Virus record (IMG/VR): IMGVR_UViG_3300032770_000062
Location: 1 to 37,167 of that record
Origin: a virus
DNA: 37,167 nt
Strand: one strand, 5' to 3'
Positions 363 through 37,167 of the stretch are shown here, piece by piece. Made by a program: the position numbers and the translations under genes. The notes beneath the pieces were generated by a model. It was not told the origin of the DNA, made no database searches, and worked only from the letters and a program-made list of their open reading frames with translations. The first letter of the stretch is position 1, and each line of letters opens with the position of its first letter.

Positions 363-391
363 TTGACATTTGAACCTTTATATGCCTAAAT
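363..391 (+). promoter_or_regulatory. Candidate sigma70 promoter
   Basis: A perfect TTGACA at 363-368 is followed after 17 bases by CTAAAT (3 of 6 matches to TATAAT) at 386-391; TATATG lies nearer but at a poor spacing. It is downstream of the allele A regulator in variant-specific sequence. Transcription would run into the hairpins at 396-430. The weak -10 keeps confidence low. Confidence 0.4.
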
Positions 392-395
392 TGGC

Positions 396-430
396 CTTAT
401 CCCGTAGGGGCTTCGGCCCGGGCCGGTAAG
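396..430 (+). other. Hairpin with a UUCG tetraloop
   Basis: GGGC (408-411) and GCCC (416-419) close a TTCG loop, a very stable RNA tetraloop. An outer helix can form between CTTA (396-399) and TAAG (427-430). It lies directly after the candidate promoter at 363, so it would sit near the 5' end of that transcript. No U-tract follows immediately, so I do not call it a terminator. Confidence 0.45.
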
Positions 431-467
431 AGCCTCCAAATCCCCTCCCAAGGTCTCGGAGGCTCTT
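428..467 (+). terminator. Terminator-like inverted repeat
   Basis: AAGAGCCTCC (428-437) pairs perfectly with GGAGGCTCTT (458-467), a 10-base stem with a 20-base loop. The following bases are pyrimidine-rich (CTCATCTT) but are not a clean T-tract. In the other variant the right arm is retained but the left arm is replaced by a separate, better terminator. It may end transcripts from the allele A regulator. Confidence 0.4.
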
Positions 468-527
468 CTCATCTTGACAACCAATCAAGATACGTGCTAT
501 GTTCTACTTCCGGCTGTATTAGACCAC
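451..527. repeat. Direct repeat of 37091-37167 (right flank of the variable cassette)
   Basis: These 77 bases are identical to the last 77 bases of the window, and the base before each copy differs (A at 450, T at 37090). The repeat includes the candidate promoter at 475-504 and the first arm of the structured RNA at 511. Together with the repeat at 1-148 it brackets the part that differs between the two variants. Confidence 0.9.
475..504 (+). promoter_or_regulatory. Strong sigma70-type promoter with extended -10
   Basis: TTGACA (475-480) is followed after 18 bases by TATGTT (499-504), with TGC directly before the -10 giving an extended -10. The start of transcription would fall at about 511, which is exactly where the long inverted repeat of the structured RNA begins. 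No rightward gene follows, and the next gene ends against it on the other strand, so the product is probably a non-coding RNA. Confidence 0.6.
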
Positions 528-589
528 ATGGACGCGATCAGTAACCTCCATGAAGGCCGAAGGTTCGCGCGGCCTTCCTAATACAGCCG
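511..589 (+). ncRNA. Candidate three-way-junction small RNA (about 80 nt)
   Basis: A perfect 12-base helix joins 511-522 (CGGCTGTATTAG) to 578-589 (CTAATACAGCCG). Inside are two further hairpins: CATGGA (527-532) with TCCATG (547-552), and AAGGCCG (553-559) with CGGCCTT (570-576). The two loops are complementary to each other (CGCG and AACCT in the first, AGGTTCGCG in the second), which allows loop-loop pairing or an alternative long hairpin. The predicted start of transcription coincides with the first base. A modest T-rich run follows the helix. It lies between the end of the regulator region and the end of the lysis cassette. It could be a regulatory RNA, a packaging-type RNA or a bidirectional terminator; I cannot decide. 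Confidence 0.5.
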
Positions 590-627: not shown

Positions 628-1071
628 CTAGTGGTTGCCTGCCGAGCCTTGAATCTTCTCTACCGTGCGCGTGACGATGTTTCCGAGTCCGAGGGCGCCC
701 AGCACCACCTGAGTCGGCACATTCATGTCCAATGGCGCCCAGTGAGCACCGAGCCACGTGGCGACCGGCTGGATGACGTATTGAAGAAGGAACGCCCCGC
801 CGCATACCCAGAGCACGAATGGCCGAGGCCCCGCGCACCAGAACTTGAAGAAGTTGGTGCCGGTGACGCCTGCATACTGGGCATCAAGATCAGTCTGAGC
901 TTTCTGGGCTTGCGCCTGTAAGTTGGCTGCCTGCTGCTGAAGATTGAGGGTTAGTTCTGTTATCTCAGCGGCTTTTGCCGGATCAATGCCGGTGATAGCC
1001 GTTCTGATCTTTACGGCCGTATCACCTAGACCGGAGACTATCCCTCCGATCAGATCGGTTATGGCACTCAT
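628..1071 (-). CDS. Holin, three-transmembrane phage holin type (147 aa)
   Basis: An N-terminal region with a Gln/Ala-rich amphipathic helix (about residues 28-65) precedes a hydrophobic C-terminal half with FKFWCAGPRPFVLW and further membrane segments to about residue 135. This order matches the 3TM holin family found in phages and gene transfer agents. It would form membrane holes that release the lytic enzyme. It is the last gene of the leftward transcript, next to the lysis genes at 1205-1938. Its ATG overlaps the stop of the small gene at 1068-1202. Endolysins often travel with this holin type. Confidence 0.75.
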   Translation of the reverse strand: MSAITDLIGGIVSGLGDTAVKIRTAITGIDPAKAAEITELTLNLQQQAANLQAQAQKAQTDLDAQYAGVTGTNFFKFWCAGPRPFVLWVCGGAFLLQYVIQPVATWLGAHWAPLDMNVPTQVVLGALGLGNIVTRTVEKIQGSAGNH

Positions 1072-22912: not shown

Positions 22913-24580
22913 TTATTTCTGCACAGAATCTGAAGAAATCGTACTCGGCTTTACCTTGCTCTTGAGCCACACATAGCGCATGGCATAGAGAACAGACTTC
23001 GTAATTTCAGGGTGAATGCCTTCCTCTTCGTCTATGCGGCGCGTCAGTTGATTTGTGACCGGATCACGAGCGAAAATGATCTTATACGTCTCTTGCTCAA
23101 AGGGACCGATAATCTTCTCCCCGCTGACTTCCTGTATCGCATGAGCCTTAAAGCGGGCGGATTTGATGTCATCCTGGAGCATTTCGTACATGAGATCTTG
23201 TTGTCCTTGGTAAGCTGGGGCCACTCGTATGCCGTACATGGCTGCGAGGTCGTGTGTGAGTTGCTTTCCAAGTCCTTCTGTATCGCAGTACCAGGTCCAG
23301 GACTTGTTAGGAATGGCGGCCAAGTAAGGGTTTGATACAACCAGGTTTGTAATTCGTTTGAGTTCATTCCCGAAGTCTGATGTGCTTTGCCTATGTCCTT
23401 TGTATTCCGCAAGGAGAAAGCGTTCACCCTTGCTTTCAGAAGAGAGAATAATCGCCGCAGAGTCGTAGTCGTCAAATCCATAGTCTAAGCCTCCCGACAG
23501 GAAAACATCCGTGATAGGCTGAGAATCAATCCATTTTCGAAGGTCAGGCTCGTCAAAATGATTGGCTGGTTGCATGCGGAATACAAGAGCCTCGGTGTCA
23601 TAACTACCCACTATGCCGAGGTATTCGCGTTGCCAAGTAGGATCAGTGTCCGTGAAGCCCTTGGCTTTCTTTGTTTTCTCCATGTCCCGCTCTGACTTGG
23701 GGATATGAGGATTGACTGACATGTTCCAGTTAAGGCGCTTGACGGACTTATTGTTAGATTGGAATAGCTCCTCAGCGTAGTTCCCTGGCACCCGAGGCGG
23801 AGTCCCGCTCAAGACTATCTCGCTATCCTCAAAATCCTTTCCAGCAGGCTCCAGAATGTCCCTGACAAGATAGCGGAGCTTTTCTGGTGCGTCTGACTGA
23901 ATCTCGTCCACGATGGACAGGAAGTAGGCTTTACCGCGTAGGTTCTCGATATCCTCTTTCGATGCGCGGCCCCGAACTTGGATCTCTGTGCCCATAGGTA
24001 GCTTGATGGTCTGAGTAGCTATATGCGGCTCATAGGGGACTTGGGCAAGGTCAAGAAGCATGGTCAGTGGCCGCCAGATCATCTCAAATGCGCTCTTAGC
24101 TGTTCTCCCAAGGTAGAGCGCTACACCCTTCTCATGGTGAATAGCCCTATCATCAGCCAAAGCGCCAAGCCCTATTGTCTTCCCTGCCCGCCTCCCGCAG
24201 ATCATCACCGTCATGGGCTTCTTGGTCATCAGTAATTCATGCTGTTCATCAAAGCAGTACTTGTAGATCAAGTAGCTCATGTAATTGAGGTCGCGCGTCT
24301 TCTGATTGGATAGGATCTCGTCTATTTCCCCGAGACGAGGGAGAGCTTGCTCCATGAAGGTAGACATGACGTTGCCCTTCATCTCAAGGATAGACTGCTG
24401 ATACTTCTCCAGGGCGTCTATGATGAAGGGGCGCTTAGACTCACCATAGGGCGTTTCAATAAGCCACTTAAAGAGTTCAGCAGACCAATGCTTGTAGCCT
24501 GCCGTGCGGCCTGGTCCTCCTTTGTTGCCGGGCTTAAATTGTGTTGCCTCTCCTACGGAAGGATCGAAATTAGGGTTCAT
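22913..24580 (-). CDS. terL: Terminase large subunit with small-subunit-like N-terminus (555 aa)
   Basis: Walker A is CGRRAGKT at residues 128-135, Walker B is FLSIVDE at 220-226 and the coupling motif SGTPP is near 265. The nuclease part has GGLDYGFDDYDSAA, with the metal-binding Asp. It packages DNA into the prohead with ATP. The first 100 residues contain QFKPGNKGGPGR, a motif of DUF5681 and of small terminase-like proteins, and a helical segment. This suggests a fusion or an added DNA-recognition region. ATG at 24580 is chosen; a TTG at 24622 is the other option. It overlaps the winged-helix gene by 11 bases. Confidence 0.85.
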   Translation of the reverse strand: MNPNFDPSVGEATQFKPGNKGGPGRTAGYKHWSAELFKWLIETPYGESKRPFIIDALEKYQQSILEMKGNVMSTFMEQALPRLGEIDEILSNQKTRDLNYMSYLIYKYCFDEQHELLMTKKPMTVMICGRRAGKTIGLGALADDRAIHHEKGVALYLGRTAKSAFEMIWRPLTMLLDLAQVPYEPHIATQTIKLPMGTEIQVRGRASKEDIENLRGKAYFLSIVDEIQSDAPEKLRYLVRDILEPAGKDFEDSEIVLSGTPPRVPGNYAEELFQSNNKSVKRLNWNMSVNPHIPKSERDMEKTKKAKGFTDTDPTWQREYLGIVGSYDTEALVFRMQPANHFDEPDLRKWIDSQPITDVFLSGGLDYGFDDYDSAAIILSSESKGERFLLAEYKGHRQSTSDFGNELKRITNLVVSNPYLAAIPNKSWTWYCDTEGLGKQLTHDLAAMYGIRVAPAYQGQQDLMYEMLQDDIKSARFKAHAIQEVSGEKIIGPFEQETYKIIFARDPVTNQLTRRIDEEEGIHPEITKSVLYAMRYVWLKSKVKPSTISSDSVQK

Positions 24581-24908
24581 CGCCGACAGTAGCCGTCTTT
24601 TTTGACGTTTCGCCGTCCACAAAAGGTTTCAGCTTGTCAAAAACTATCTTGTACTCCATACCTCGCTTGCCTTTCTTCTGCTCTAACCAACCGGATTCTA
24701 CCAGATTATGGAGCATGAGATATACCACTGAATCCTTGACTTTCAGCGCCCGCGTAATCTGGGCTATTGAAGGAGGAAAGAAGTAGCCATTACGTGGAAT
24801 GTAGCGTTCTGGGAATTGCTGATAGATAGCTGTCATTACAAGAGCTTGCATGGGGCGCATGCATTTCATTAATCCTTTGACTATAAGCTCTTGGGGATTA
24901 TCACTCAT
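24570..24908 (-). CDS. Winged-helix DNA-binding protein (112 aa)
   Basis: Residues 20-85 fit a winged helix: helices with PMQALVMTAIYQQF, then FPPSIAQITRALKVKDSVVYLMLHNLVESGWLEQKKG, a typical recognition helix and wing as in MarR-like domains. It is directly upstream of the large terminase with an 11-base overlap, so it may be the small terminase or a late regulator. Its ATG overlaps the stop of the ribbon-helix-helix gene at 24905. The binding site is unknown. Confidence 0.6.
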   Translation of the reverse strand: MSDNPQELIVKGLMKCMRPMQALVMTAIYQQFPERYIPRNGYFFPPSIAQITRALKVKDSVVYLMLHNLVESGWLEQKKGKRGMEYKIVFDKLKPFVDGETSKKTATVGDEP

Positions 24909-26939: not shown

Positions 26940-27887
26940 TTACTCCTTTGGCGTCTGGGCAGGCTCGACGGGTCTACCATGAACAGAACACGCCTCTGTG
27001 CTGATGATGTTTGTACCGGAGCCTTGACAGGTACACCGCGTCTGCTCACTGGCCCCCGCGAGGGCGGCTTCATAATGGGGTATCTCCATCCAAGCCTCTA
27101 CGTTGTCCCATGCACGCGCATTGCGCGGATGCTCACTTCGAGGTCTTCCGTCGTACCAGAAGATGCCGTCTCCACTTCCATTCCTGCGAACATGATTGCG
27201 GGTGTGAACGATATAGTGGCCCGGTTGGGCGGGCTTCTCAGCAGGCCATCTATGCCAAGGTCCCGTCGTCTCCTTGGGCGTCTCGGGGTTTCGTGCTCGC
27301 CACGAGATGGCATCCCTAACGAGTGCGTCGTAGACTTCCTGCGTGATGGCGGGCGCGTGACCCCTCACTTGCTCAAGAGTGGGAACCTGCTCGGCGCTTG
27401 GTCCGCTGGTGGGGTGGCGCAAGAGAGCGAGAATCGCATCTGCTACTTCGTATCCCTTCCCGGCTCCCATGGCATTACACAAGTCGGAATTGCTGTCCAT
27501 ATATGCCCAATAGATACGATCCCGCAACCCACTTGCCCCGCCCTCGTACTTGGCGGCCAGTTCATCGCGTATCTCCTCGGTGGCGCTTGGTCCGCTGGCG
27601 GGGTGAGCAAGAATAGCATCCATCTTGTCGCAATGCTCTTTCACCACCTTAATCATCATCCAAGCAGAAACATCGCCAGAAGGAAGACCGAACTTGAAGC
27701 GTTCCATCTCCGCATCTACCGCTTCCCGCAGCCCGCTTGCCCCGCCCTCGTACTTGGCGGCCAGGGCGCGGAGTTCCTTGATACATCGTTTCCTTTCGTC
27801 CTCTTCTCCTTGACCATACATTCCAAGCCCATTCGAAAGGCTTTCCCACTCCTTTGCCAGCACCAGCAGATCCGCGTGGATACTCAT
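26940..27887 (-). CDS. Repeat-module protein with DUF551-like C-terminus (315 aa)
   Basis: Residues 45-180 hold two modules, each starting AAKYEGGASGLR and ending SGPSA. The cores between differ. The C-terminal 110 residues contain WHRWPAEKPAQPGHYIV, a W-D-VEAWMEIP end and a final Cys/His-rich part (CTCQGSG...CSVHG), which resembles DUF551-type phage proteins with a zinc-binding end. The start ATG has AGGAGG 5 bases upstream in a 50-base sequence repeated at 28275. Function is unknown. The modular structure suggests recombination. Confidence 0.6.
   Translation of the reverse strand: MSIHADLLVLAKEWESLSNGLGMYGQGEEDERKRCIKELRALAAKYEGGASGLREAVDAEMERFKFGLPSGDVSAWMMIKVVKEHCDKMDAILAHPASGPSATEEIRDELAAKYEGGASGLRDRIYWAYMDSNSDLCNAMGAGKGYEVADAILALLRHPTSGPSAEQVPTLEQVRGHAPAITQEVYDALVRDAISWRARNPETPKETTGPWHRWPAEKPAQPGHYIVHTRNHVRRNGSGDGIFWYDGRPRSEHPRNARAWDNVEAWMEIPHYEAALAGASEQTRCTCQGSGTNIISTEACSVHGRPVEPAQTPKE
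27392..27560. repeat. Recombining module 3 (borders conserved, core variable)
   Basis: The element GGCGCTTGGTCCGCTGG and its flank at 27392-27415 and the 40-base element at 27521-27560 border a unique core. The same borders enclose unrelated cores at 27582-27764 and 27956-28144. Confidence 0.7.
27582..27764. repeat. Recombining module 2
   Basis: Border elements at 27582-27604 and 27725-27764 are nearly identical to those of the other two modules. The core encodes residues between AAKYEGGASGLREA and HPASGPSA. It and its neighbour are in the same gene. Confidence 0.7.
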
Positions 27888-27912
27888 ACTTCCTCCTTTT
27901 TGTGACCGGAAA
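27863..27912. repeat. 50-base direct repeat, copy 1
   Basis: Exact match to 28275-28324. It carries the Shine-Dalgarno site, start codon and first codons (MSIHADLL) of the gene at 26940-27887 and the last codons (SGHKKEEV) of the gene upstream. Duplication of a translation start can place a new gene into the operon. Confidence 0.9.
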
Positions 27913-28228
27913 CCGTGTAGATGGATGGCACTTCTATTTCCGGCTCCCCCTGCTCGGCGCTTGGTCCGCTGGCGGGGTAGCTCCGCATGAAATCCCTTAT
28001 CGCCCGAAGGTTGGCAATTCCCCCTTGGCAGTATTCGTTTGTTGGCTCCTTGCCATGGAACTTGCAGCTATCAATCAGCGATTTCAATTCCTTTTCCATT
28101 GCCTCCCGCAGCCCACTTGCCCCGCCCTCGTACTTGGCGGCCAGGATCGCCCTCGCGATTTTGTGAGCCTTAATTCCGCGAAGCGCACTGTGCTGGTGGA
28201 TGATACGAACAATATCTACTTCGTTCAT
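27884..28228 (-). CDS. Repeat-module protein, single module (114 aa)
   Basis: The protein has an N-terminal helix region (NEVDIVRIIHQHSALRG), one AAKYEGGASGLREA module with a Cys-containing core, and the SGPSAEQ border near the end. It shares the module borders with the neighbour at 26940, so the two genes are related by duplication. ATG at 28228 overlaps the stop of the stub at 28225 (ATGA), and the stop overlaps the next ATG. Longer starts at 28273 would run through the stub. Function unknown. Confidence 0.6.
   Translation of the reverse strand: MNEVDIVRIIHQHSALRGIKAHKIARAILAAKYEGGASGLREAMEKELKSLIDSCKFHGKEPTNEYCQGGIANLRAIRDFMRSYPASGPSAEQGEPEIEVPSIYTVSGHKKEEV
27956..28144. repeat. Recombining module 1
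   Basis: Border elements at 27956-27978 and 28105-28144 match the other modules with few mismatches. It is in a separate gene (27884-28228). The core encodes a Cys- and His-containing helix region not seen in modules 2 and 3. Confidence 0.7.
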
Positions 28229-28299
28229 ACGCGGGCTCCCTGCAGCAGATCGATACCACCACAGAACGGACACGCCAGCAGATCCGCGTGGATACTCAT
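28225..28299 (-). pseudogene. 24-codon stub with CPFCGG motif (Lar-like remnant)
   Basis: The reading frame starts with the duplicated MSIHADLL codons and goes on with ACPFCGGIDLL, the zinc-knuckle typical of Lar-type restriction-alleviation proteins, then stops. A good AGGAGG precedes it and the stop overlaps the next ATG. It is probably the remains of a Lar-like gene cut by recombination, kept because it couples translation. A functional 24-residue peptide is possible. Confidence 0.45.
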
Positions 28300-28324
28300 A
28301 CTTCCTCCTTTTTGTGACCGGAAA
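28275..28324. repeat. 50-base direct repeat, copy 2
   Basis: Exact match to 27863-27912. It supplies the start of the 24-codon stub at 28225-28299. The two copies differ at once outside these limits. Confidence 0.9.
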
Positions 28325-32007: not shown

Positions 32008-32276
32008 ATCCTTCCTCCTTGCTTCTCTTTGTATTCCTGGTACATCACTTCCAAGTCTTCATCATTCAAAAAAGAGATCGAGTCATCGCTACTGGTCCCG
32101 CCCATTCCCAACTTCTCGGGGCTTACCTCCAGCCTATCCCCTTGGGGCAATCGCCTGTCCCGGCAACTGGAGTCATATACCGGGTTCAACGGTTTCGCTC
32201 TTGACTCGATCTTCTTGACCTTCATAGAATCGCAGACCATCTTGGTCATCTTCTCCAGATAATCCATGTAGTTCAT
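32004..32276 (-). CDS. Acidic uncharacterised protein (90 aa)
   Basis: The N-terminal 20 residues form a helix (MNYMDYLEKMTKMVCDSM), the middle is polar, and the end is acidic and helical (NDEDLEVMYQEYKEK). No family is recognised. It is coupled to its neighbours by ATGA overlaps at 32007 and 32276. Confidence 0.45.
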   Translation of the reverse strand: MNYMDYLEKMTKMVCDSMKVKKIESRAKPLNPVYDSSCRDRRLPQGDRLEVSPEKLGMGGTSSDDSISFLNDEDLEVMYQEYKEKQGGRI

Positions 32277-32449
32277 TTCAGAGCCTCAATCAAAGCGTCA
32301 GCAAAATCACAGGCACATTGAGCAAGAATACTTGCGGATGCACCATTCCTAGATGCTATGTATCCCTGTAGTGCCATGGCCGCGAAGTACTCCCGCTTCG
32401 TCAGTCCTTTCGCTCCGTCAGTAGAAAACGCCAGATCTTTCCCGTTCAT
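32273..32449 (-). CDS. Phage protein with LTKREYFAAMALQG motif (58 aa)
   Basis: LTKREYFAAMALQGYIASRNG and the end FADALIEAL are characteristic of a common short phage protein of unknown function. AGGAGG lies 8 bases before the ATG. Longer reading frames that continue upstream run through the repeat DNA of the neighbouring gene and are not real. Confidence 0.65.
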   Translation of the reverse strand: MNGKDLAFSTDGAKGLTKREYFAAMALQGYIASRNGASASILAQCACDFADALIEALK

Positions 32450-32469
32450 TTCTCCATCCTCCTGTCTCT

Positions 32470-33081
32470 CTATATGGCCGGTGCTTTCGTATAATGCTTG
32501 CGCACTATATTTGCACACTGCTTCAATACCTTTTTTCGTTCTGTGATGTAGGCGGCGGCGTAGGCGGCGTCGGCGGCGTTGGCGGCGGCGGCGGCGGCGT
32601 AGGCGGCGTCGGCGGCGGCGGTGTTGGCGGCGTCGGCGGCGGCGGCGTTGGAGGAGGCGTAGGCGGCGTCGGCGGCGGCGGCGGCGGCGGTGGCGGCGGC
32701 GTAGGAGGAGGCGTAGGCGGCGGCGGTGGCGGCGGCGTAGGAGGAGGCGGAGGCGGCGGCGGCGGCGTAGGCATTGGCGGCGGCGTTCCTTACTTCCTCT
32801 ATTGTCGCTTCTCCCTTTGTCCACGCCTCGGAGGTCTCGATGCACTTCAGCACGCGAGGATCTTTCGTATATGGCAGCGCAAATCTTGCACATTCGCAGG
32901 CGACCAGAACCAGAGGTTTTCTGCTGTCGCTCCACGGATCTCCCGCTGTTTTACCGATAAGCCATAACATCCAGTCCCCACGCTTGCAGAACGACCATGC
33001 CGTTTCTTCGTCAGCCTGTCCAAATGCCCACTCGACCGCCTCACTGCAAGCCCCCAGCGACCGCAATTTCGATACATCCAT
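32470..33081 (-). CDS. Imm5-like helical protein with Ala/Tyr repeat array (203 aa)
   Basis: The first 100 residues (EAVEWAFG, WLIGKTAGDP, LVACECARFALPYTKDPRVLKCIETSEAW) fit a family related to Imm5-type immunity proteins. From residue 101 to 180 there is a repeat array of AAYA, ASSYA and ADAA units. Its DNA is a run of GCGGCGGCGTAGG-like triplets. A basic end follows. The helical array may be a solenoid of variable length. A similar array is in the unrelated protein at 34152. Function unknown; toxin immunity is only suggested by the family. Confidence 0.6.
   Translation of the reverse strand: MDVSKLRSLGACSEAVEWAFGQADEETAWSFCKRGDWMLWLIGKTAGDPWSDSRKPLVLVACECARFALPYTKDPRVLKCIETSEAWTKGEATIEEVRNAAANAYAAAAASASSYAAATAAAYASSYAAATAAAAAADAAYASSNAAAADAANTAAADAAYAAAAAANAADAAYAAAYITERKKVLKQCANIVRKHYTKAPAI
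32550..32785. repeat. Ala/Tyr-coding triplet repeat array 1
   Basis: On the plus strand the bases alternate GGC, GGA and GTA/GTT units with few other codons for over 230 bases. It makes long spurious Gly-rich, Arg-rich and Pro-rich frames on other frames. Repeat units vary, and slippage or recombination could alter the length. Confidence 0.8.
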
Positions 33082-33927: not shown

Positions 33928-34155
33928 CTAGTGCTCCTGATGCGCGCCTACAAATACATATCCCGATCTCCTATAGCATTTGGGATACCTTTGCGCCTTC
34001 TGGGTCCATGGTGGAACTTGATCCATGGCAACTTTCTTGCGCCATATGATCTCCATAGAGTCCAGCATCCAGCATCTATGAGAACCACCAAGACCGTGAT
34101 TGTAGTCATCGTTATAACAGCCCGCACAATGCTTCAACTTCTCCCTGTCTGTCAT
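33928..34155 (-). CDS. Conserved phage Cys-rich protein, VDQ/PPW type (75 aa)
   Basis: CAGCYNDDYNHGLGGSHRCWMLDSM, MDQVPPWTQKAQRYPKCYRRSGYVFV match a widespread small phage protein with two Cys pairs. It is likely a zinc-binding fold. No function is known. Coupled with ATGA to the gene at 34152. Confidence 0.65.
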   Translation of the reverse strand: MTDREKLKHCAGCYNDDYNHGLGGSHRCWMLDSMEIIWRKKVAMDQVPPWTQKAQRYPKCYRRSGYVFVGAHQEH

Positions 34156-34814
34156 TTTCGCGCCTCCCTCTTGGCTGCCTTCTCAATAGCCGTAACAAGC
34201 CAACCGGCGTACTTTTTCTTTGCCTTTTCTCTATCGGCGGCGTTGGCGGCGGAAGCGGCGGCGTAGGCGGCGTAGGCGGCGGCGGTGGCGGAGGCGTAGG
34301 CGGCGGCGTAGGCGGAGGCGGAGGCGTAGGCGGCGGCGGAGGCGTAGGCGGCGGCGTTGGCGGCGGAGTAGGCGAAGTAGGCGGCGGTGTTGGCGGCGGA
34401 GTAGGCGGCGTTGGCGGCGACGTAAGTTCTATCTTTTCCCCTTATCCACAAATCAGCCCATGCGTTCCACGCCTTGTCATTGCAGACCTTCTTTGTTGTC
34501 TTCACAGCATCGGTCGCCACACGAATCGACCACGCTAAAATGATTTTCTTCGCGTCCAGCGTCCACAGCACTTTACGATTTCGGCAAACCAGCTTTCGCT
34601 CATCCTGCTCCATGTCTCCGCTGCACTCCACGCGAGAAACTTGAAATCCCGGTGCAAACCACAGAGCATCCTGAATGTCTACGCTTGCGTGATATCCCCT
34701 GACGCACATTTTCAGATTGCCCTCGTACTTGTAGGTCTTTCCTACTTTTAGCGGCTGACCGTCTCTCAGCTTCATCCCGTCAGTAAAATGCCATGCCAGT
34801 ACTTTCTTAGTCAT
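34152..34814 (-). CDS. DUF7666-like protein with Ala/Tyr repeat array (220 aa)
   Basis: The first 100 residues (VLAWHFTDGMKLRDGQPL, CVRGYHAS, ALWFAPG) match a phage and bacterial family of unknown role (DUF7666-type as I recall it). Residues about 127-195 are an array of AAYA, SAAN and ASA units like the one in the protein at 32470, with similar DNA. A basic end (REKAKKKYAGWL) follows. The shared array on an unrelated N-terminal domain suggests exchange of the repeat between genes. Confidence 0.6.
   Translation of the reverse strand: MTKKVLAWHFTDGMKLRDGQPLKVGKTYKYEGNLKMCVRGYHASVDIQDALWFAPGFQVSRVECSGDMEQDERKLVCRNRKVLWTLDAKKIILAWSIRVATDAVKTTKKVCNDKAWNAWADLWIRGKDRTYVAANAAYSAANTAAYFAYSAANAAAYASAAAYASASAYAAAYASATAAAYAAYAAASAANAADREKAKKKYAGWLVTAIEKAAKREARK
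34237..34430. repeat. Ala/Tyr-coding triplet repeat array 2
   Basis: GGCGGC, GGAGGC and GTAGGC units run for about 190 bases on the plus strand, as in the array at 32550-32785, with long Arg-rich and Gly-rich spurious frames. The two arrays lie in separate genes 1.5 kb apart. Confidence 0.8.
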
Positions 34815-35181: not shown

Positions 35182-35212
35182 TTGACATGGTTTTGGTGTA
35201 ACCTAGTAAGAT
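35182..35212 (+). promoter_or_regulatory. Promoter for the rightward leader and operon
   Basis: TTGACA (35182-35187) is a perfect -35. Possible -10 boxes are TAGTAA (16-base spacer) and TAAGAT (19-base spacer); neither is perfect. It points into the 250-base leader. Weak -10 and ambiguous spacing suggest control by a factor. Confidence 0.5.
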
Positions 35213-35214
35213 AG

Positions 35215-35467
35215 CAAACAAGGGTGGGCTTAAGGACCATCCAGCTTTCGGATAGAGAAAAACAGAAAAGCGGCCGGTAGACTTTCAAGACATACGGAAA
35301 ATAGTTCTTGTAATGTGAGACGGTTGTTGATAGACTTCTGGATGCTACCGGGTGATGAACATCATCTGGCTTAAGGGTTGACCTACATCATGGTAAGGTG
35401 GTGTGAGTCAACGGGGTCTCCGTTGTTGGCCGCCGAGAGTCTTACCGCTCAGAGCGGCCTTTTTCTT
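35215..35467 (+). ncRNA. Structured leader with alternative hairpins and terminator
   Basis: This region lacks a protein gene. A hairpin near 35223-35242 (GGTGG with CCATCC), GATG-AA-CATC at 35354-35363, GTTGAC (35377-35382) with GTCAAC (35407-35412) and CAACGG (35409-35414) with CCGTTG (35420-35425) can form; the last two share bases 35409-35412 and exclude one another. A terminator follows. GGCTTAAGG occurs twice (from about 35227 and 35368). The set resembles an attenuator or a terminated small RNA. Confidence 0.5.
35428..35467 (+). terminator. Intrinsic terminator in the leader of the rightward operon
   Basis: GGCCGC (35428-35433) pairs with GCGGCC (35454-35459), with a further GAG/CTC pair inside, and TTTTTCTT follows at 35460. 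It lies 15 bases before the GTG of the first gene, so expression needs read-through, antitermination or control of this hairpin. Confidence 0.7.
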
Positions 35468-35481
35468 CTAGGAGCGTAGAA

Positions 35482-35916
35482 GTGAAGTGGAACGGAGAAT
35501 CATTCAGTGCTAACTACGTAATAACACACTTTGACGGAGATGTAATGTTTGTCCTGAAAAAGGACGCTGAGGCTGAAATAGAGAAGGCCCGCAGAGAAAG
35601 CTATGAAAATGGTACATCAGATGTAATAAGAAGGATGGAAGAGGCCCGCGCCAAGGAACGAGAAAGCATTCTTGCATTTGCTAGAAGTGAGAATCTTTCT
35701 AATGGCGAGCCTGGATATTTCGGAGAGGGATGGAGAAAATCCAGAAACCTGATCATAAACTTCATCAAGTCTCGCTCCGGTGGCTCACAGAGTAAGCCTA
35801 TTCAGAAAATTTCATGGGAGGCTACTTGGGAGCATACAGACTCATGGGTTGTCAAGAAGTTCAACGAACTCATAGACGCTGTTAACGAGCTAAGGGCTAA
35901 AGGAGATAAGCAATGA
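35482..35916 (+). CDS. First gene of the rightward operon, coiled-coil protein (144 aa)
   Basis: A short N-terminal beta region (FSANYVITHFDGDVMFVLKKD) is followed by a charged helix (about residues 29-70), then a polar middle and a helical end. It starts with GTG at 35482, 7 bases after AGGAG and directly behind the leader terminator. It overlaps the next gene in ATGA. No family recognised. As the first early gene it may act on host functions. Confidence 0.55.
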   Translation: MKWNGESFSANYVITHFDGDVMFVLKKDAEAEIEKARRESYENGTSDVIRRMEEARAKERESILAFARSENLSNGEPGYFGEGWRKSRNLIINFIKSRSGGSQSKPIQKISWEATWEHTDSWVVKKFNELIDAVNELRAKGDKQ

Positions 35917-36053: not shown

Positions 36054-36208
36054 CTAAGAACGTGAGAAGAGACAAGTACCTGGCCTTGATCTCCCTAGCT
36101 GAGGAGTTCCTAAGAGAAGAAGGCTTAGAGAACGGCGAGAGAACTACCATGCAAGAGGTAGTCTCCCTGGTGAGAGGCCGCCTCAATAGCCTGAAAGGCA
36201 AGAAGTGA
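36050..36208 (+). CDS. 52-residue helical protein
   Basis: Two helices (KYLALISLAEEFLREEGL and TTMQEVVSLVRGRLNSLK) with a helix-turn-helix look and a basic end, which might bind DNA, but the signal is weak. It is coupled to both neighbours. Its 3' end is repeated at 1-36. Confidence 0.5.
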   Translation: MTKNVRRDKYLALISLAEEFLREEGLENGERTTMQEVVSLVRGRLNSLKGKK

Positions 36209-36320
36209 TGCCTCTTTGGTTCTGGGCCCTCTGCGGGGCGGCCGCCTATCTTACATTCCTTCTTGTCGTTGGCTGGTTAGTATCTCGAATACCACCGAGT
36301 ATGAGGTAATCCATGAGCCG
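36173..36320. repeat. Direct repeat of 1-148 (left flank, complete copy)
   Basis: See the copy at the window start: 127 bases exact then three mismatches up to 36320. Downstream of it the sequence encodes allele B of the regulator. Confidence 0.9.
36208..36309 (+). CDS. 33-residue membrane peptide (copy B)
   Basis: Same gene as 36-137, with one changed residue near the end. A single hydrophobic helix of about 25 residues. The ATG overlaps the upstream stop. The stop is 3 bases before the regulator ATG, so the two genes are probably co-translated. Confidence 0.55.
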   Translation: MPLWFWALCGAAAYLTFLLVVGWLVSRIPPSMR

Positions 36321-36525
36321 TGAAGTAAGATTCAGCTTCGATAGCGAAGAACAGAAGGCCGAGTTTGAAGCCTATGCCAAGGGTAAGGGCATGAGCCTTT
36401 CAGGTCTCTCAAAGATGGCCGTATTTCAATACAAAGCCAAATATGCCCTAAGCGAGGCGCAAAAGGCTGGAATCAAGAGAGGGCGCGGCAGACCACCCAA
36501 AGAAAATAATACTGTACAGTCTTGA
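36313..36525 (+). CDS. Ribbon-helix-helix regulator with AT-hook-like tail, allele B (70 aa)
   Basis: VRFSFDSEEQKAEFEAYAKGKGMSLSGLSKMAVFQY has the strand-helix-helix pattern of Arc/CopG-type DNA-binding proteins. The tail KRGRGRPPKE matches the AT-hook core (RGRP), a minor-groove contact. Combined, these give a small DNA-binding protein likely to repress a nearby promoter. The dyad at 36959-36976 is a candidate site. It takes the place of a different ribbon-helix-helix protein at 141-314 in the other variant. Confidence 0.7.
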   Translation: MSREVRFSFDSEEQKAEFEAYAKGKGMSLSGLSKMAVFQYKAKYALSEAQKAGIKRGRGRPPKENNTVQS

Positions 36526-36547
36526 TTTTTTGGGATAGACTGTAGCC

Positions 36548-36952
36548 ATGGCATACAAGAATAAGGCTACTCGTAATGCAGCACAGAATAAACATCGTCG
36601 TGAACATCCTGAAATACGACAAAGATACATTTATAAAAACACAGCCCTTCAGAGGAAACGGCAAGCAATTAAGAGGATTAGGAATAGAGAACTTGTATTT
36701 GATCACTATGGTTGGAAGTGTGAATGTTGTGGAGAAGATCATAAAGAATTCTTGGCCATCGACCATATTGATGGAGGAGGCAACAAACACAGACAACAGA
36801 TCGGAGTTGTAGGATCAGGATTCTATGAATGGCTAGTGAAGAACAACTTTCCAGAAGGATTTAGGACTCTATGCCATAATTGTAATTTCTCTCTAGGAGT
36901 CAAAGGTTACTGCCCTCATCATCCACCTGACTTACCATTATTTCAGACTTGA
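36548..36952 (+). CDS. HNH endonuclease, probably homing (134 aa)
   Basis: The N-terminus is basic. CECCGEDHKEFLAIDHIDGGGNKHR and later FRTLCHNCNFS form the HNH/N fold with four Cys for zinc and the DH catalytic pair. This group is found in free-standing homing endonucleases of phages. The gene is A/T-rich, unlike the neighbouring genes, and is present only in variant B. It could promote spread of the cassette by cutting the cassette-free allele. It has its own weak upstream site at TTGGGATAGACTG. Confidence 0.75.
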   Translation: MAYKNKATRNAAQNKHRREHPEIRQRYIYKNTALQRKRQAIKRIRNRELVFDHYGWKCECCGEDHKEFLAIDHIDGGGNKHRQQIGVVGSGFYEWLVKNNFPEGFRTLCHNCNFSLGVKGYCPHHPPDLPLFQT

Positions 36953-36976
36953 CTGCTATGTATACTTTAGTATACA
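36949..36976 (+). promoter_or_regulatory. Promoter with overlapping perfect operator dyad
   Basis: TTGACT (36949-36954) is followed after 16 bases by TATACA (36971-36976). TGTATACT-TT-AGTATACA (36959-36976) is a perfect dyad with a 2-base centre that covers spacer and -10, so a bound dimer would block the promoter. The transcript would run into the hairpins and terminator below. Confidence 0.6.
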
Positions 36977-36982
36977 ATTTTC

Positions 36983-37090
36983 ATGTCAGACGTAAAGCCG
37001 AGGGCGGGATAGGAGGCAGGGTACCGATGGGTACGAGTAGGCAGTCTGGCGAAGGCCGGCAGATCCTCCCAATTCGCCGGCCTTTCTTTT
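36983..37090 (+). ncRNA. Candidate small RNA with own promoter and terminator
   Basis: From the predicted start near 36983, CAGAC (36987-36991) can pair with GTCTG (37044-37048), GTACC (37021-37025) with GGTAC (37030-37034), and a terminator ends it. There is no good open frame. It exists only in variant B. It might be a regulatory RNA under the control of the local regulator. Confidence 0.45.
37051..37090 (+). terminator. Intrinsic terminator of variant B cassette
   Basis: AAGGCCGGC (37052-37060) pairs with GCCGGCCTT (37076-37084), and TCTTTT follows. It ends the HNH or small RNA transcript. The shared right flank begins just after it. Confidence 0.75.
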
Positions 37091-37167
37091 AGGTCTCGGA
37101 GGCTCTTCTCATCTTGACAACCAATCAAGATACGTGCTATGTTCTACTTCCGGCTGTATTAGACCAC
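37091..37167. repeat. Direct repeat of 451-527 (right flank at the window end)
   Basis: 77 exact bases, including the promoter at 475-504 and the first 17 bases of the structured RNA. The match runs to the last base, so the true sequence most likely continues as at 528. Confidence 0.9.

Follow-up and report, generated by a model that had tools for sequence, protein, structure and literature searches.

A promoter-linked structured element, most likely with a small RNA role, at the convergent end of a phage late operon

Genomic context

The window analysed here is the whole of the IMG/VR virus record IMGVR_UViG_3300032770_000062 (37,167 bases), which represents an uncultured phage. Nearly all genes of the record are oriented leftward, with the terminase (22913-24622) followed by tail and structural genes and the holin coming last. 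The rightward arm is short, running from about 35180 round to 590, and converges head-on with the holin; the structured element discussed here, RNA C, lies at the end of this arm (Table 1). The sequence-only reading from which this work started had noted that no rightward gene is present, and there is indeed no credible one: a 96-aa frame (631-921) is wholly antisense to the holin and has no Shine-Dalgarno sequence before it. A search for tRNA and tmRNA found none.

The large terminase subunit is canonical (phrog_2 match, E 1.8e-23). Positions 37091-37167, the right end of the record, are identical to 451-527, and positions 1-148 show 98% identity to 36173-36320. In the simplest reading, these repeats would reflect a circularly permuted genome of about 36.6 kb, with the assembly containing two versions from the population of the stretch to the left of the RNA C promoter. 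Of these, variant A contains a 57-aa frame together with a promoter and a terminator-like hairpin, and variant B a 70-aa frame, an HNH endonuclease and RNA B with its own promoter and terminator; the 57-aa and 70-aa frames are similar in sequence at their beginnings, and the RNA C promoter is the same at the join with either variant. The two versions, 1-527 and 36173-37167, meet at the same 77-base stretch, which is either a place where the phage population exchanges sequence or a junction between variants made by the assembly.

Relatives of the terminase and portal (49-62% identity) come from contigs of 6-26 kb; those fetched whole are fragments and contain no match to the holin, and a genome scan for holin relatives returned none. 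One contig comes from a metagenome bin that carries the label Elusimicrobia; as an indication of the host, this is weak at best.

Several other features of the record deserve mention. Region 35182-35459 comprises a possible promoter (TTGACA-19-TAAGAT, found by eye), about 245 nt in which no clear gene is seen, and a strong terminator ending at 35459 (TTTTTCTTCT); it is possibly a further leader or small RNA ahead of the rightward gene at 35482. Degenerate alanine-rich tandem repeats, 77-85% alike, occur at 32548-32787 and 34234-34424 within the leftward genes 32273-32935 and 34152-34814, and several exact or near-exact direct repeats of 27-50 bases are clustered within about 1 kb at 27386-28324.

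Table 1. Coordinates of RNA C, its parts and the neighbouring features in the window
Feature	Position	Strand	Basis or remark
Upstream cassette of variant A: promoter 363-392, short structured RNA (RNA A), terminator-like hairpin 430-465	363-465	+	Promoter, fold and terminator scoring
Junction common to both variants (A and B); contains the promoter and the 5' end of RNA C	451-527		Identical to 37091-37167
Sigma70-type promoter, TTGACA-18-TATGTT, extended -10 (TGc)	474-503	+	10/12 positions
RNA C, predicted three-way-junction RNA	511-589	+	Fold, rarity, pair probabilities
Closing helix, 5' arm, 12 bp	511-522	+	Partner 578-589; inverted-repeat scan, pair probabilities
Hairpin 1, 14-nt loop CGCGATCAGTAACC (533-546)	528-551	+	Predicted fold
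Hairpin 2, 10-nt loop AAGGTTCGCG (560-569), partly complementary to loop 1	552-577	+	Predicted fold
Closing helix, 3' arm, followed by TCATTTCG, a poor U tract	578-589	+	Inverted-repeat scan, terminator scoring, pair probabilities
Holin (GTA_holin_3TM / phrog_3427); final gene of the leftward late operon, oriented towards RNA C	628-1071	-	
Upstream cassette of variant B: promoter 36949-36978, RNA B 36985-37050, intrinsic terminator to about 37092	36949-37092	+	Relative in L016:1313-1377

Fold and promoter of RNA C

RNA C had been described as a perfect 12-base helix that closes two inner hairpins, and this architecture is confirmed: all 12 pairs of the closing helix are Watson-Crick, with probabilities of 0.95-1.0, and the inner stems are formed by 528-532/547-551 (with a competing sixth pair, 527-552) and 552-559/570-577. 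Within the window, this helix is the sole perfect inverted repeat of at least 12 bp with a span of 55-140, against an expectation of 0.13 per shuffled genome. The minimum free energy of 505-600 is -34.6 kcal/mol (z -3.97), a value equalled by none of 200 shuffles; the fold energy of RNA C itself ranks 256th among the 37,088 79-base windows on the plus strand of the whole record, which is good but not exceptional, so that the case for RNA C rests on the helix and its place rather than on energy. The minus strand yields an equal or better fold (-39.6 kcal/mol), and the fold by itself therefore says nothing about the strand, which is given by the promoter. Furthermore, given that all pairs are Watson-Crick, an inverted repeat functioning at the DNA level or on the other strand would look identical. 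RNA C is non-coding, with structure beyond chance; the 17-aa ATG frame inside it (528-581) has no Shine-Dalgarno sequence.

The extended -10 promoter that had been proposed is present and matches 10 of the 12 positions, but it lies one base to the left of the position initially assigned to it (475-504). The companion claim that transcription begins at the edge of the helix holds as well: the usual start from this promoter would fall at 510-512, and the helix lies 6-9 nt after the promoter. Extended sites of this quality occur about 0.2 times per shuffled genome, and none of 150 shuffled genomes contained a promoter of at least 10/12 whose start coincided with an inverted repeat of 10 bp or more. 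As judged by these matches, RNA C appears to possess a promoter of its own, as expected of a small RNA gene.

No intrinsic terminator follows 589 on the plus strand (T-score 1.7 at 590 and 2.4 at 593, that is, 4 nt beyond the stem), and no good plus-strand terminator was found between 589 and about 970. On the minus side, there is no U tract (T-score at most about 1). RNA C itself was considered as an intrinsic terminator and rejected for either strand, the required succession of hairpin and U tract being absent on both.

The complementarity of the two loops, also pointed out in the sequence-only reading, is real but carries modest weight. CGCG (533-536) and AACC(T) (543-547) pair with AGGTTCGCG (561-569), leaving a 6-nt bulge; among shuffled loop pairs, 1.2% attain 8 bp in two runs, 6% have a run of 5 and 15% match the duplex energy, so that, depending on the measure, 1-15% match the observed loops and the signal is weakly above chance. 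The computed energy of an RNA C dimer is -76.3 kcal/mol as opposed to 2 x -32.9 kcal/mol for the monomers, which would make dimerisation possible thermodynamically; the computed dimer consists mostly of hairpin arms opened onto each other, as would be the case for any hairpin. A search for antisense targets of RNA C within the phage yielded none beyond chance, the best loop-to-start-site energies being matched by 16% of shuffles.

Search for relatives of RNA C

No meaningful match to RNA C was detected in Rfam at gathering or permissive thresholds, and none in the phage and plasmid collections. A single-sequence covariance model, run against the related phage records and, for the phylum to which the Elusimicrobia bin belongs, 199 genomes, retrieved only RNA C itself and chance-level matches. 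Pattern scans of IMG/VR gave 4 matches for the closing helix with a free middle and 12 for hairpin 2, all of which were discarded as chance, coding-like sequences without the structure. RNA C matches no known family, and a homologue is absent from every search (Rfam, IMG/VR patterns, phages, plasmids and related records); very close records might have been omitted from these, so that the absence does not amount to proof.

RNA cassettes at related loci

Relatives of the holin are present in two phages that otherwise share little with this one, L003/L016 (65% identical) and L004/L018 (53%). In both, a rightward, terminated RNA cassette lies beside the holin and is followed by a leftward terminator for the holin side, located 66-95 and 21-46 nt from the holin stop. 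Here, such a leftward terminator is absent, and RNA C, 39-117 nt from the holin stop, occupies that very place. The L018 phage has a comparable, terminated cassette there; the promoter-like sequences of L016 and L018 are weaker (8/12 by eye, with none reaching at least 9 in the promoter scan).

RNA B, in the alternative upstream version, is a 66-nt structured RNA with the conserved core GAGGG..GGG..GGAGG..GGUnCC..AUGGGnACGAGUAGnCAG and belongs to no Rfam family. Its relative at L016:1313-1377 adjoins the 65%-identical holin and retains 12/12 pairs, with 2 compensatory and 2 one-sided changes, the latter giving U-G pairs that fit the plus strand. The shuffle control of this alignment (138/500) is not decisive with two sequences, but shifted pairings are only 18-36% paired. 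A further pattern match to RNA B, in L015, was dropped as coding-like sequence. RNA B and its relative share a helix that closes right at the transcript start, a terminator and a place beside the holin; RNA C is likewise predicted to start at its helix. With compensatory changes between two phages, RNA B is better supported than RNA C.

Two other observations pertain to these loci. A frame with a DPPW motif (L016:32-631), which precedes RNA B in the L003 phage's rightward arm, resembles adenine methyltransferases, and a tandem repeat of about 30 bases (GTCAGCGTACAGCGCGGCGAGCTTGGCC) lies beside the RNA cassette of the L004 phage (L018:2709-3040).

What could RNA C be?

The earlier proposal, a structured RNA driven by a promoter and perhaps regulatory, agrees with the sequence, the rarity among shuffles and the neighbouring RNA cassettes in related loci. 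More specifically, the promoter, the buried 5' end and the slot that carries other RNA cassettes suggest that RNA C is a stand-alone, orphan phage small RNA gene expressed from its own promoter, a reading to which we give about an even chance. Under this scenario, whose transcription, 3' end, stability and action in trans we infer, the host RNA polymerase would start at about 510-512 from the extended -10 promoter, and the transcript would fold at once into a three-way junction with its 5' end buried in the closing helix, yielding a compact, nuclease-resistant RNA of about 80 nt. Such an RNA would most likely use its two exposed loops to act in trans, its target being either an RNA (of the host or the phage) or a host protein; when not engaged, the loops may pair with each other. 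RNA C would sit next to the holin, at the late operon's convergent end, in a variable slot for small RNAs that other promoter-RNA-terminator cassettes fill at related loci; it is probably one of several small RNA genes that are swapped in and out at this spot near the lysis genes. Against the stand-alone reading stand the lack of an RNA C homologue, of a phage target and, unlike in its neighbours, of a terminator, the last being its weak point; the weaker promoter matches of L016 and L018 and the strand-neutral Watson-Crick pairs also count against it. A more ambitious version, in which RNA C is a structured phage RNA of a new type whose complementary loops allow it to dimerise or switch and which, as one of the exchangeable cassettes at the late-operon end, governs a host factor or the timing of lysis, strikes us as quite improbable.

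Alternative explanations bear on the same facts. The inverted repeat could be a boundary element whose minus-strand hairpin terminates or protects the leftward late transcripts, with the plus-strand promoter being incidental or separate. This would account for the presence of an inverted repeat where L003 and L004 have a leftward intrinsic terminator between the holin and the convergent RNA, and for the stronger fold of the minus strand, but not for the absent minus-side U tract or for the fact that the repeat starts exactly at the expected transcription start of the plus promoter; we regard it as possible but unlikely. RNA C could also be the 5' end of a longer antisense transcript: with no terminator after 589, the polymerase would continue along the opposite strand across the holin and the next gene, lysis would be delayed, and the fold would protect the 5' end. 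The promoter faces the holin, the stretch without a good terminator extends to about 970, and there are precedents in the PAK_P4 RNA over the endolysin (PMC12197685) and the early antisense RNAs over late genes of PAK_P3 (PMC4933390). However, the rightward RNAs beside the holin in L003 and L004 are closed by terminators, and a simple antisense promoter has no need of an 80-nt three-way junction, so we consider this explanation rather unlikely, somewhat more so than a boundary element.

Less likely still is a chance inverted repeat or a DNA-level site (for protein binding, an origin or recombination) without RNA function. Compatible with such an origin are the symmetry of the repeat at the DNA level, the switch between population variants immediately to its left and the absence of any homologue from the searches; the combined rarity of the repeat and its position relative to the promoter speaks against it, and neither a target-site duplication nor an integrase was found beside RNA C. 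Finally, the sequence-only reading had invoked the loop-loop pairing principle of the phi29 packaging RNA; an RNA of this type would form a ring through such pairing. The three-way junction with partly complementary loops recalls this RNA, and, known pRNAs being only about 12% similar in sequence (PMC5340915), the absence of a match is not decisive. Nevertheless, as the same reading had recognised, there is no sequence match (the pRNA covariance model, searched along with all Rfam families, found none) and the phage is not phi29-like: rather than a phi29-type packaging ATPase and a protein-primed linear genome of about 19 kb, it has the canonical terminase and a permuted genome twice the size of that of phi29. 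Given also that RNA C is about 80 nt long, compared to 120-174 for pRNAs, which have been described as unique to the phi29 group, with its linear genomes of about 19 kb and terminal proteins (PMC11476376), the suggestion is not supported; we see no reason to think that RNA C packages DNA and deem this very improbable. We favour the view that RNA C is a real, well-placed, structured, promoter-linked element of an ordinary kind, most likely with a small RNA role as far as the sequence can tell.

In broader terms, little is known of the small RNAs of virulent phages, which are overlooked in most phage annotation. A recognisable convergent gap beside the holin that holds interchangeable promoter-RNA cassettes in otherwise different phages would be a place to look for them. 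This cassette slot, together with RNA B, is a more promising lead than RNA C itself.

Comparison with known systems

The likeness of RNA C to the phi29 prohead RNA is confined to general shape, namely a three-way junction and two hairpins with pairable loops, whereas the type of phage, the length and the position all differ. With antisense RNAs such as PAK_P4as15 and lambda aQ, RNA C shares a promoter directed against a lysis or late gene (PMC12197685); unlike these, it ends before the holin and is strongly structured, and read-through into the holin is hypothetical. Virulent phages make abundant small RNAs of about 100 nt, the function of which is unknown (PMC4933390). PAK_P3 sRNA1 and sRNA2 and the band C and D RNAs of T4 are, like RNA C, phage-encoded, intergenic and about 80-100 nt long (PMC4933390); they have been seen as transcripts, whereas RNA C is a prediction, and the Rfam and phage-record searches revealed no sequence relation between them. 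Of the systems compared, the small RNAs of virulent phages are the closest kind to RNA C.
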